DNA from: Halosimplex salinum
Lineage (GTDB): Archaea; Halobacteriota; Halobacteria; Halobacteriales; Haloarculaceae
Assembly: GCF_003730195.1 (NCBI RefSeq)
Contig: NZ_QWGG01000007.1
Coordinates: forward strand, 124,001 to 188,000
Direction: 5' to 3'
Length of the DNA stretch: 64,000 nucleotides
Shown here: positions 57,350 through 61,453 of the stretch, in pieces
Position numbering within the stretch: position 1 is the stretch's first letter
How the letters are laid out: each line of letters starts with the position of its first letter
Program-made: the position numbers and the translations under genes
Notes under the pieces: generated by a model
What the model was told of the DNA's origin: nothing
What the model saw: only the letters and a program-made list of their open reading frames with translations
The model's database searches: none

Positions 57350-57589
57350 GACCGTACCCGCACTGTCGCCCAGCAGGAGTAAGAACTTTCCGGCCACGCT
57401 ATCGATAAATACCTTGCGTTAGGCGGGTAACGGGGCCGTTTTCTGGAATATTGTTTCGGTTCCGAGTACCTGTGCCACCGTCACACGGTGGTGCGTGACA
57501 CGGGCCGCGGTCGCGGTCGGACGGTCGGTGGGCTCACCCTACGGACGAGCAACCGGATCTTAATGCGCGGGGAGCCGTACACAGCGTGT

Positions 57590-58741
57590 ATGCGCAGTCG
57601 CGCGGTCGGGGTGCTATTGGTGTGCGTCGTCGCGGCGAGTCTGGGTCTCGGCGCGCTCGACAGCGGCGGTCACGAACACGATGGGGGCGACGCGGTCGAA
57701 CTGGCTGACACGGATAGGCCCACAGCGGACCGGCTCGTCCAGCCCCGGGAGGGCGGGAGTCACCTCTGGCCGTACACGAGCAGGCGTCGGTCGGTCGACG
57801 GACGGACGCTCGCGCTGAACGTGGTCGTCCTCGGGGAGCCCGACCGTGTCAGGCGAGTGCTGGAACACCGGTCGGACGCCGACTGGACGGGGGCCGAGGG
57901 CGACGCCGCCATCGGAGAGACGCCGTGGCGGCACGCGAGCGGGGCGACGCGCTACACCTACGTCGCGGACGCGCCCGACGGTGACGGTCAGTGGGTCGAC
58001 GCGACCTACCAGCTCGGCGTCGGCTCGTACTTCACCTCTCGCGTCCACGCGCGAGCGTACCCGGCGCCGTCGGGGAACTGGACGGCGCTGCAGGCCCACA
58101 CCGAGTACTGGGACTGGTTCCGGCTTCGCCACACGGTCACCGGGACCGGTCCCGGTGCGCGCTTCGTCGAGGAGGACTTGCGCGGACTCAGCGTGACGAC
58201 GGACCTGCGACAGGAGGACTACGGCTTCGGCGGGAGCGGGGACAGGGGCTGGCTCTCGGTGATCGAGTTCGGGTCGGCCGGGGCGGCGGGGTTGCTACTG
58301 GTCGCCTCCCGACGGCGGTTGCGGGCGCGGGCGACGGACCTGGCGCTCCCGGTCGTGCTCGTCGCGCTCGTGCTCGGCGTCCGGGGCGCGGGCGTCGCCC
58401 TCGCCGACCTGACCGTCGGGACGAACCCGCAACTGCTCGCGGGTATCCTGTATCCGGTGCTGGTCGCCGGACCGCTCGTCGCCACCGCGAAACTCGCGCC
58501 GGCGGAGCCACTCCGGGCCGCTGCGCTCGCGACGCTCGGGCTCGGCGCGGGACTCGCGCTCGACCTCGCGGTCGTGGACGTCGCGGCCGTCCCGACCCGG
58601 CTGGCGCTCCACCGCGTCGCGCTCGTGGGCGCGCTGGCGGTCGTGGCGGTCGGCGCAAGCGAGAGCGACCGTCGACTCGTCGCGACGGGCGTCGCCGCGT
58701 GGGCGCTGACCCTCGTGCTCCCGCTCGCAGGCGTCGTTTAG
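57590..58741 (+). CDS. Membrane protein with LssY-C-like extracytoplasmic domain
   Basis: This 383-residue protein has an N-terminal signal/anchor (VGVLLVCVVAASLGLGALD) and an extracytoplasmic domain of about 200 residues (LNVVVLGEPDRVRRVLEHR, YQLGVGSYFTSRVHARAYP) that resembles the LssY C-terminal domain. The second half is about six transmembrane helices. TATA-like ttaatg about 27 nt upstream of ATG 57590 supports a leaderless start. The LssY link is moderate; the role is unknown. Two genes downstream is a PAP2 phosphatase, and bacterial LssY-C domains often travel with PAP2. Confidence 0.68.
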   Translation: MRSRAVGVLLVCVVAASLGLGALDSGGHEHDGGDAVELADTDRPTADRLVQPREGGSHLWPYTSRRRSVDGRTLALNVVVLGEPDRVRRVLEHRSDADWTGAEGDAAIGETPWRHASGATRYTYVADAPDGDGQWVDATYQLGVGSYFTSRVHARAYPAPSGNWTALQAHTEYWDWFRLRHTVTGTGPGARFVEEDLRGLSVTTDLRQEDYGFGGSGDRGWLSVIEFGSAGAAGLLLVASRRRLRARATDLALPVVLVALVLGVRGAGVALADLTVGTNPQLLAGILYPVLVAGPLVATAKLAPAEPLRAAALATLGLGAGLALDLAVVDVAAVPTRLALHRVALVGALAVVAVGASESDRRLVATGVAAWALTLVLPLAGVV

Positions 58742-58889: not shown

Positions 58890-60665
58890 ATGACAGGACG
58901 GGAGGCGGGGTCGGCGGGTGTGAGTCGGCGGTCGGTGCTGGCGACAGCGGCGGCGGCGGTCGGCGCGGTCAGCGGGTGCGCCAAGCGCACTCGAAACGTG
59001 ATGGCGCGGGACCCCGCGAGTCAGGTGTCGCTCCGGATCCTGACGGTTCCGGTCGACGCCAACCCGTACCCAGCGCGGATCGCACAGGCGCTCGCCGCCA
59101 ATCTCCGGGCGTGCGGCGTCGACGCGGGCGTCGAGCCGACCGGGCCGGAGGCGCTGTACCGTCGCGTCCTCCTCGACCACGACTTCGACCTCTACGTCGG
59201 GCAGTTTCCGCGGACGGACTGGCGCGACCCCGACCACCTCTACGCGCTCGCTCACTCGGTGTACGCCGGCGAGCCGGGGTGGCAGAACCCCTTCGGCTAC
59301 ACCAACCTCCAGCTCGACGACGCGCTGGAGACCCAGCGGACCACGAGCGGGGCCGAACGGAAGACCGCCGTCGCCGCGGTCCAGGAGCGCCTGGCGGAGT
59401 CCCAGCCGTTCACGACGCTGGCCGTTCCCGACGCGCTGAGCGCGGTGCGGACGGACCGGTTCGGGAACTGGCGCGGGAGCCCGATGGACCCGCTGACGCT
59501 CCTCGGGCTCTCACCCACCGGAGAGGCGACGACGCTCCGACTCGGGACGACCGACGGCCGGATCACCGGGAACCGCAACCCGATCACCGCGGAGTTCCGG
59601 ACGCGAGGGACGTTCGTCGACCTGCTGTACGACTCGCTGGGCCGCCGGGTCGACGGCGTCCTGCGACCGTGGCTGGCCGCCGACTGGCGGATCAGCGAGC
59701 GGGACGGCCAGTTGCAGGCGCTCCTCTCCCTCCGCGAGGACCTCACCTGGCATGACGGCGAGCCGCTGACCGCAGACGACGTGGCCTTCACCTACGAGTT
59801 CCTCGCGGACACGTCGCTCGGCGCGGCGGAGAGCCCGATCCCGGCCTCGCGCTACCGGGGTCGGACCTCGCTGGTCGCGGACGTGTCGGTCGTCGACGAG
59901 ACGACGGTGCGGGTCGCCTTCGCGGACTCGTCGCCGGTCGTCGCCGAGCGGGCGTTCACCGTGCCGCTCCTCCCCGAGCACGTCTGGGCCGAGCAGACGG
60001 AGACGGCGCGGGTCGCCGGCGTCGAGACCAACCGCACCATGACCGAGGCGCTGGCCTGGAACAATCCACAGCCGGTCGGGAGCGGACCGCTCCAGTTCGA
60101 GCGAGCGGTGCCCAGCGAGTCGCTGCGCCTCTCCCGGTTCGACGACCACTTCCTCCGGGACGACCCCGAAGACCTCCCGGAGCGGCTGACCGGCGCGCCC
60201 GCCTACGAGGAACTCAGGCTCTCCGCGGTGGGATCCGACGACGCCGCGGTGGAACTGGTAGCCGCCGGCGACGCCGACGCGACAGTCGCTCCGGTCGGGG
60301 CGGCCGTCGTCCCCCGGATCGGCCGGGAATCGGCGCTCGACCTCGTCAGCCGCCCGTCCCGGGCGTTCTATCACCTCGGGTTCAACACGAGGACGGCGCC
60401 GCTGTCGAACACCCGGTTCCGCCGAATCGTCGCCAGGCTGTTCGCGCGGTCGCGGATCGTCGAGTCGGTGTTCGACGGCTACGCACAGCCGGCGGAGACC
60501 CCGCTCGTGGGGACTGGCTGGGAGGTCCCCGAGCGGACGCTGGACGACGTCGGCCCCGGCGACACCTTCGTCGGCGAGGGAGGGGAACTCGACACCGAGG
60601 CGGCGAGAGCGGCGTTCGTCGAGGCCGGATATCGATACGACGACGGCGACCTCCTGTCAGAATGA
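58890..60665 (+). CDS. Family 5 solute-binding lipoprotein, apparently circularly permuted
   Basis: This 591-residue protein has a Tat signal (VSRRSVLATAAAAVG) with lipobox VSGC at Cys30. Residues about 47-207 read like the normal C-terminal segment of SBP_bac_5 proteins (ARIAQALAANLRACGVDAGV, DFDLYVGQFPRTDWRDPDHL, NPFGYTNLQLDDAL). Residues about 215-591 read like the normal N-terminal and middle part (LRPWLAADWRIS, LREDLTWHDGEPLTADDVAF, GSGPLQFERAVPSESLRLSR, FYHLGFNTRTAPLSNTRFRR) and stop at AARAAFVEAGYRYDDGDLL, exactly where the other segment should follow. No ABC permease or ATPase gene adjoins. The stop overlaps the PAP2 gene by 4 nt (ATGA). A TATA-like ctaatact lies about 30 nt upstream. 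Confidence 0.88.
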   Translation: MTGREAGSAGVSRRSVLATAAAAVGAVSGCAKRTRNVMARDPASQVSLRILTVPVDANPYPARIAQALAANLRACGVDAGVEPTGPEALYRRVLLDHDFDLYVGQFPRTDWRDPDHLYALAHSVYAGEPGWQNPFGYTNLQLDDALETQRTTSGAERKTAVAAVQERLAESQPFTTLAVPDALSAVRTDRFGNWRGSPMDPLTLLGLSPTGEATTLRLGTTDGRITGNRNPITAEFRTRGTFVDLLYDSLGRRVDGVLRPWLAADWRISERDGQLQALLSLREDLTWHDGEPLTADDVAFTYEFLADTSLGAAESPIPASRYRGRTSLVADVSVVDETTVRVAFADSSPVVAERAFTVPLLPEHVWAEQTETARVAGVETNRTMTEALAWNNPQPVGSGPLQFERAVPSESLRLSRFDDHFLRDDPEDLPERLTGAPAYEELRLSAVGSDDAAVELVAAGDADATVAPVGAAVVPRIGRESALDLVSRPSRAFYHLGFNTRTAPLSNTRFRRIVARLFARSRIVESVFDGYAQPAETPLVGTGWEVPERTLDDVGPGDTFVGEGGELDTEAARAAFVEAGYRYDDGDLLSE

Positions 60666-61453
60666 CGCTCCTCCCCGTCCTCTCCAAGGTCGTCGCCGTC
60701 GATCTGGTGGTCGTCACCGTGAGCGCGCTCGTCCTCGTGGGGCCCGAACGCCTGCGCGAGACGGCGGCGGAACTCCCGGACCGACTGCGGGATGTGGCGG
60801 TTCCGCTGGTGGTCCTGGCGGTCGTTTTGCTCGTCAACAGTCTCATCCGCGAACCCGTCACGGAGGTCGCCTGGCTCGTCGGCGTCAACGTCACGCCGAT
60901 CATCTACGGTATCGAGGGCGACTTCGTCGCGTGGTTCCAGTCGCTTGGCACCCCCGCCGTCACGACGCTGTTCTCCTACGCCTACGTCTACGGCTACGTG
61001 TACGTCCTGGTCTTCCCCCTCGTCGCCTACGCCGCCCTGGAGGACTCCCGCGCACTGCGAGAGCTCACCGTCGCCTACAGCGTCAACTACGCCCTCGGGC
61101 TGGTGTGTTACGTCCTCGTCGTCGCCTACGGGCCGCGGAACCTGCTCGGCGAGACCGTCGAGTCGCTGCTGTACACCCAGCACCCCGAGTTCCAGTTTCT
61201 CACCAGCCGCGTCAACTCGAACACGAACGTCTTCCCCTCGCTGCACACCTCGCTGTCGGCGACGGTGATCGGCGTCGCTTACGACACGCGCGAGACGTAC
61301 CCGTGGTGGCTCGCAGTCGCGACCGTGGTCGGCCTCTCGATCATCGGCGCGACGATGTACCTCGGCATCCACTGGGCGACCGACGTGGTCGCCGGCCTCG
61401 TCCTCGCGGCGATCGCCGTGACTATCGGCCGACGATACGCGAACCGACAGTAG
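60662..61453 (+). CDS. PAP2-family membrane phosphatase
   Basis: This 263-residue protein has about six to seven transmembrane helices. The PAP2 signature is PSLHTS (residues 192-197) and GIHWATD (235-241) with the catalytic His237 and Asp241. It resembles the PAP2_3 / inositol-phosphoceramide-synthase-like branch, so it may move or remove a phosphate-linked head group of a lipid. It starts on the last bases of the solute-binding gene, so the two are translationally coupled. Confidence 0.9.
   Translation: MTLLPVLSKVVAVDLVVVTVSALVLVGPERLRETAAELPDRLRDVAVPLVVLAVVLLVNSLIREPVTEVAWLVGVNVTPIIYGIEGDFVAWFQSLGTPAVTTLFSYAYVYGYVYVLVFPLVAYAALEDSRALRELTVAYSVNYALGLVCYVLVVAYGPRNLLGETVESLLYTQHPEFQFLTSRVNSNTNVFPSLHTSLSATVIGVAYDTRETYPWWLAVATVVGLSIIGATMYLGIHWATDVVAGLVLAAIAVTIGRRYANRQ

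Follow-up and report, generated by a model that had tools for sequence, protein, structure and literature searches.

The window, a stretch of 64,000 nucleotides of Halosimplex salinum DNA, holds an open reading frame that raises the question of whether a family 5 solute-binding protein can carry its conserved segments in a rotated order and, if so, what such a protein would do. The gene (58890..60665, + strand, ATG start) encodes a product of 591 amino acids ending in ...AARAAFVEAGYRYDDGDLLSE, which we denote cpSBP, for a circularly permuted SBP_bac_5 protein with its cut at what we call site A. Residues 1-30 (58890..58979, +) form a predicted Tat signal peptide with lipobox, as judged from the sequence and from the homologue alignment. 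This N terminus carries a twin-arginine motif and the lipobox SRRSVLATAAAAVGAVSGC with C30, and R13, R14, G29 and C30 are invariant across 54 homologues. Block 1 (residues 47-209; 59028..59516, +) corresponds to the C-terminal segment of ordinary family 5 proteins and block 2 (residues 214-591; 59529..60662, +) to their N-terminal segment, both assigned by PF00496, hhalign and structure fits. The old C terminus is joined to the old N terminus at about residues 210-213 (59517..59528, +); the limits of this join were inferred from the boundaries of the structure fits and are precise to a few residues.

We compared the protein with the PF00496 model. Full-length cpSBP scored 166.6 bits against a curated cut-off of 32.4 bits, which meets the criterion for a family match, and its best stretch aligned residues 258-587 with model positions 2-284. 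Block 1 searched alone matched model positions 292-363 (E = 7e-5) with 22.5 bits, below the cut-off. The two blocks match C-terminal and N-terminal model positions, respectively, in the rotated order that the preliminary description had proposed. Because the PF00496 score of block 1 alone was weak, profile-profile and structure comparisons carry most of the weight in its assignment. hhalign analyses of the 54-sequence cpSBP family alignment against 22 conventional proteins placed block 1 at positions 430-547 of the conventional template (E = 1.8e-8, probability 95%) and block 2 at positions 63-405 (E = 1e-45), with no doubled or missing segment relative to that template. The best match in the PDB, 5isu_A, was found in rotated pieces, with cpSBP residues 230-540 on chain positions 32-307 and residues 61-205 on 353-492. 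None of the PDB chains among the matches listed in phmmer searches with the window protein (P0001), L126 and L256 aligned in one stretch across the junction. The window protein scored 788 bits in one piece with a family HMM in the permuted order, and only 553 + 218 bits with the re-rotated HMM, whereas conventional proteins with clear signal in both parts showed the opposite preference, the re-rotated HMM scoring better. A rotation test with the conventional profile failed to pick up the weakly scoring block 1 in approximately half of the PAP2-linked proteins (see below), so that this group was assessed with a profile of its own family, hhalign and structures. The usual N-to-C order of conserved segments, a criterion for SBP_bac_5 proteins, is not met by cpSBP, and the protein counts as a permuted branch of SBP_bac_5/cluster C rather than as an ordinary member.

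AlphaFold2, with the family alignment as input, yielded a model of cpSBP with a pLDDT of 87.0 and a pTM of 0.84. Residues about 206-591 of this model were aligned by VIA-align with residues 18-356 of AppA (1xoc_A; Z 22.6, rmsd 3.0, 330 aligned residues), and the same region also fits residues 3-327 of NikZ (4oeu), i.e., the N-terminal two thirds of the cluster C chains. An AlphaFold model of block 1 alone (pLDDT 84.5, pTM 0.68; residues 44-212) fits AppA 358-520 (Z 11.2, rmsd 5.0, 158 aligned residues), NikZ 329-494 and AgaA (6hlx) 343-476 (Z 11.4, rmsd 2.6). The two fits tile AppA with a junction at 356/358, and because they adjoin there, nothing appears to be missing or doubled in the fold. 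Together with the absence of a second C-terminal copy in the hhalign analyses, this is in agreement with the single clean cut that had been suggested from the sequence. Both fits concern predicted models, with the blocks fitted separately, and no superposition of the joint model that is free of chain order was performed. The criterion of a three-domain, two-lobe cluster C fold is met by the tiling of AppA and NikZ, for a predicted and not a solved structure. The expectation that the fold is kept, and does not consist of two unrelated domains, was also borne out, since the modelled blocks map side by side on the same solved chains. The best structural matches were cluster C proteins, and cluster B proteins were not among the direct comparisons.

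It is extremely improbable that cpSBP consists of two distinct domains, unrelated or independently acquired, that merely resemble a rotated binding protein: although block 1 alone remains under the Pfam cut-off, the blocks fit neighbouring stretches of the same solved chains without overlap, the full-length model reaches a pTM of 0.84, and the re-rotated family profile finds the conventional relative L277 as a single match of 170 bits. An assembly or gene-calling fault was excluded, as colinear full-length homologues with their own Tat signals are present in dozens of independent genomes. As far as sequence and predicted models can tell, cpSBP is almost certainly a circularly permuted, Tat-exported, lipid-anchored extracellular cluster C binding protein.

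The old termini of the cluster C fold meet in domain I, as in OppA. In cpSBP they are linked by the short join, which may have been cheap because the old ends meet there. The new termini are located in the loop after the conserved '...AGY..' helix, within domain III, which would place the lipid anchor on the second lobe rather than on domain I; this position of the anchor is an inference from the known fold. A flexible lipoprotein linker would allow the anchoring of a new end.

cpSBP shares its sequence family, the fold of both blocks, the WHDGEPLTADDV motif and lipoprotein export with cluster C/family 5 proteins (PF00496; AppA 1xoc, NikZ 4oeu, DppA 1dpp). In contrast with them, its segments are rotated, its anchor is inferred to be on the other lobe, and its family has no adjoining ABC permease. 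Among binding proteins, natural circular permutation is on record for Tp0684/MglB-2, a tethered lipoprotein of Treponema pallidum assigned to 'cluster Bc' (PMC4990184). Both are permuted tethered lipoproteins, and cpSBP has the permuted topology found in cluster Bc (TpMglB-2-like) proteins, but MglB-2 has a cluster B fold and a glucose ligand and represents a different family and a different cut. The initial statement that no such case had been described thus holds only in part: no natural permutation of a cluster C protein was found in the literature searched, most subscription papers being outside its scope, whereas MglB-2 is a precedent, the sole one found, in cluster B. What is new here is permutation in cluster C, the number of cut sites and the pairing with PAP2.

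Using a threshold of E <= 1e-22, we found full-length colinear homologues of cpSBP in 269 of 391 Halobacteria genomes and in 70 of 86 genera, a count that takes in a few divergent dpp-linked relatives. The same order is conserved across Halobacteria. Forty-three loci were fetched, from genera such as Halosimplex, Halorubrum, Halorussus, Natronorubrum and Halobacterium. No permuted site A homologue was detected outside the class Halobacteria among the matches from 197 Halobacteriota genomes, and the four matches beyond the class (L277, L281, L282 and L283) all have the conventional order. The PAP2-linked cpSBP family is old, large and widespread in Halobacteria.

In most of the divergent site A proteins (L114-L122), the C terminus lies at ...AGY.WDD..LLYP(E) or nearby. 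At L114-L118 and L120-L122, dppB, dppC and ATPase genes come next; no dpp genes were seen at L119, on a short stretch only. Those eight loci meet the SBP_bac_5 criterion of an ABC permease/ATPase operon, which is not met in the PAP2-linked family. Given the gene order at the eight loci, the permuted site A form is very probably a working component of ordinary Dpp-type importers. It may be that site A arose twice, in the PAP2-linked family and in the dpp-linked relatives, and one tree does join the conventional proteins L281/L283 to the PAP2-linked clade with a bootstrap of 100 and places the dpp-linked clade elsewhere. Nevertheless, a single site A clade was not rejected (p-AU 0.56, log-likelihood 1.83 higher, C20 model), and the end points are nearly identical (...AGY.WDD..LLYPE), so that we regard two origins as rather unlikely.

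Five more cut sites (B-F) besides site A were identified in other SBP_5 proteins, in archaea and bacteria. Sites B, C and D occur within one haloarchaeal DppA family, whose permuted proteins are 40-54% identical to conventional members; their segments are given in the coordinates of the conventional L160. Site B ([421-620][72-412]) is found in L126 (9205-11148, i.e., G000:C23:117204-119147, - strand), the second permuted SBP_5 protein of the window's genome, which belongs to a complete operon with dppBCDF downstream. Its cut falls one helix upstream of site A. This form is common to about 15 Halobacteria genomes, and in many genomes close relatives with about 47-54% identity over the larger part have the conventional order. 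Within the stretches fetched for scanning, the rotation test assigned the conventional order to the remaining SBP_5 genes of the window's genome, though several scored low. Site C ([545-622][60-540]; L147, L151, L154 and L155/L168) is cut outside the PF00496 model, so that the Pfam annotation of these proteins looks normal. Site D ([194-620][51-186]; L169 5610-7472, + strand, genome G201) was found in one genome only, with conventional and B forms in its genus. The rotation test placed the cuts at model positions 363-369 (B), 474-495 (C) and 146/155 (D).

Sites E and F came from a survey in which 78 of 86 proteins, haloarchaeal ones included, were conventional. Site E ([139-551][43-129]; L251, L252, L255 and L256) adjoins dppBC in four Chloroflexota genomes, and residues 85-455 of one site E protein matched chain positions 126-501 of Escherichia coli DppA (E = 8e-65). 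Site F ([303-539][99-293]; L254 3637-5382, - strand) was found in one bacterial genome, where it adjoins dpp genes; its second segment is weak (21 bits), making it the least certain cut. L250 looked permuted but was discounted as a partial protein at a contig end. In Chloroflexota, two open frames (L257 1995-7001, 1669 residues; L258 2499-6299, 1267 residues; both - strand) carry a conventional SBP_5 domain after about 780-1080 residues of unidentified sequence. Several of the permuted forms probably serve normal Dpp-type importers, and the existence of about six cut sites in all indicates that the family 5 fold tolerates circular permutation.

We built trees of re-rotated sequences, in which B, C and E each formed one fully supported clade, site D fell among conventional proteins (83-92 with L159), and site F grouped with a conventional bacterial protein (100). 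There are six arrangements beyond the conventional order, and the C20 tree required 7 changes for 8 labels. This count is blind to gain versus loss, and we assumed the conventional order to be ancestral, since it prevails among the surveyed bacteria. Tandem duplication followed by trimming is the textbook route to circular permutation, which is usually told as a rare accident when natural. More than one natural permutation in one superfamily is known for the circularly permuted GTPases (YRG/YlqF, cpRAS) (PMC2430557), whose repeated permutation resembles that of SBP_5 proteins, in an unrelated domain. Here one family of three-domain proteins of ~500 residues has apparently been cut at about six places, three of them in one group of 40-54% identical relatives with the same operon position. 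Such matched before/after pairs could serve to test the function of a protein's termini and of the site at which it is anchored. Domain annotation that ignores segment order misses these permutations, as illustrated by site C, wholly outside the PF00496 model.

The next gene at the window locus encodes a PAP2_3 family membrane phosphatase/phosphotransferase (60662..61453, +), whose start overlaps the cpSBP stop (ATGA). The linkage to PAP2 and not to an ABC importer was absent from the preliminary description. The protein belongs to the PAP2_3 (PF14378) enzymes and keeps their H...H...D catalytic motifs; FPSLH (H195) and GIHWxxDV (H237, D241), the catalytic motifs of the PAP2 superfamily, are kept in 98% of 45 sequences. 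PAP2_3 is the next same-strand gene at 42 of the 43 cpSBP loci, the contig ending at the 43rd, and the gap is mostly -4 to +4 nt. Among 145 genomes, each of the 94 with PAP2 also has cpSBP. In the comparable part of the genome list, cpSBP without PAP2 is limited to two exceptions, G188 and G242, with weak matches only, which are presumably of the dpp-linked type. At L096, which is not one of the 43 loci, no PAP2 gene was present within the 1.5-kb flank. There is very little doubt that cpSBP and the PAP2_3 gene form a co-inherited genetic unit.

cpSBP is made together with the PAP2_3 enzyme from the overlapping next gene, and the PAP2-linked form does not work with a neighbouring ABC importer. 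The role that we favour is that of a tethered receptor serving the PAP2 enzyme, the ligand being unknown. That cpSBP captures an extracellular ligand and hands it over to, or controls, the PAP2 active site is a tentative inference that may well prove wrong, as contact with PAP2 is untested. A conserved neighbourhood is no proof of joint action, and cpSBP could instead be served by dpp permeases encoded at other places in the genome. The protein might then be rotated but ordinary, feeding a distant dpp-type permease, with PAP2 a neighbour that has a separate job, e.g., lipid carrier recycling. Several dppBCDF operons in the same genome make this conceivable, as do the same-cut relatives in dppBCDF operons, which make it very probable that the permuted fold functions with such importers. 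However, no dppB/dppC homologue was found within about 6 kb at any of the 43 loci, 40 of 44 pairs have PAP2 no more than 30 nt away, the two genes are duplicated together in tandem and their co-occurrence is 94/94; we thus consider a distant permease possible but on the unlikely side. The explanation as a whole, a rotated lipoprotein in a PAP2 unit with a ligand-related role, within a family of recurrent permutation, is moderately well supported. It is doubtful, if conceivable, that relocation of the anchor by permutation is a repeated, selected change in family 5, one haloarchaeal form having left transport to become an extracellular receptor for PAP2. We know of no report of a PAP2 enzyme with a dedicated solute-binding protein, and none was found in the literature searched; the PAP2-linked branch represents a surface system of two genes that is widespread in Halobacteria and has yet to be characterised.

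The whole cpSBP-PAP2 pair is duplicated in tandem at L066 and L082, and more than one copy is present in several haloarchaeal genomes. Upstream of cpSBP, the window carries a gene for a predicted membrane protein (57488..58741, +; true start probably near 57590) without a match in Pfam or NCBIfam. Members of its family, which has many invariant residues, occur at 16 of the 43 loci; in 15 cases the gene immediately precedes cpSBP and is read from the same strand.
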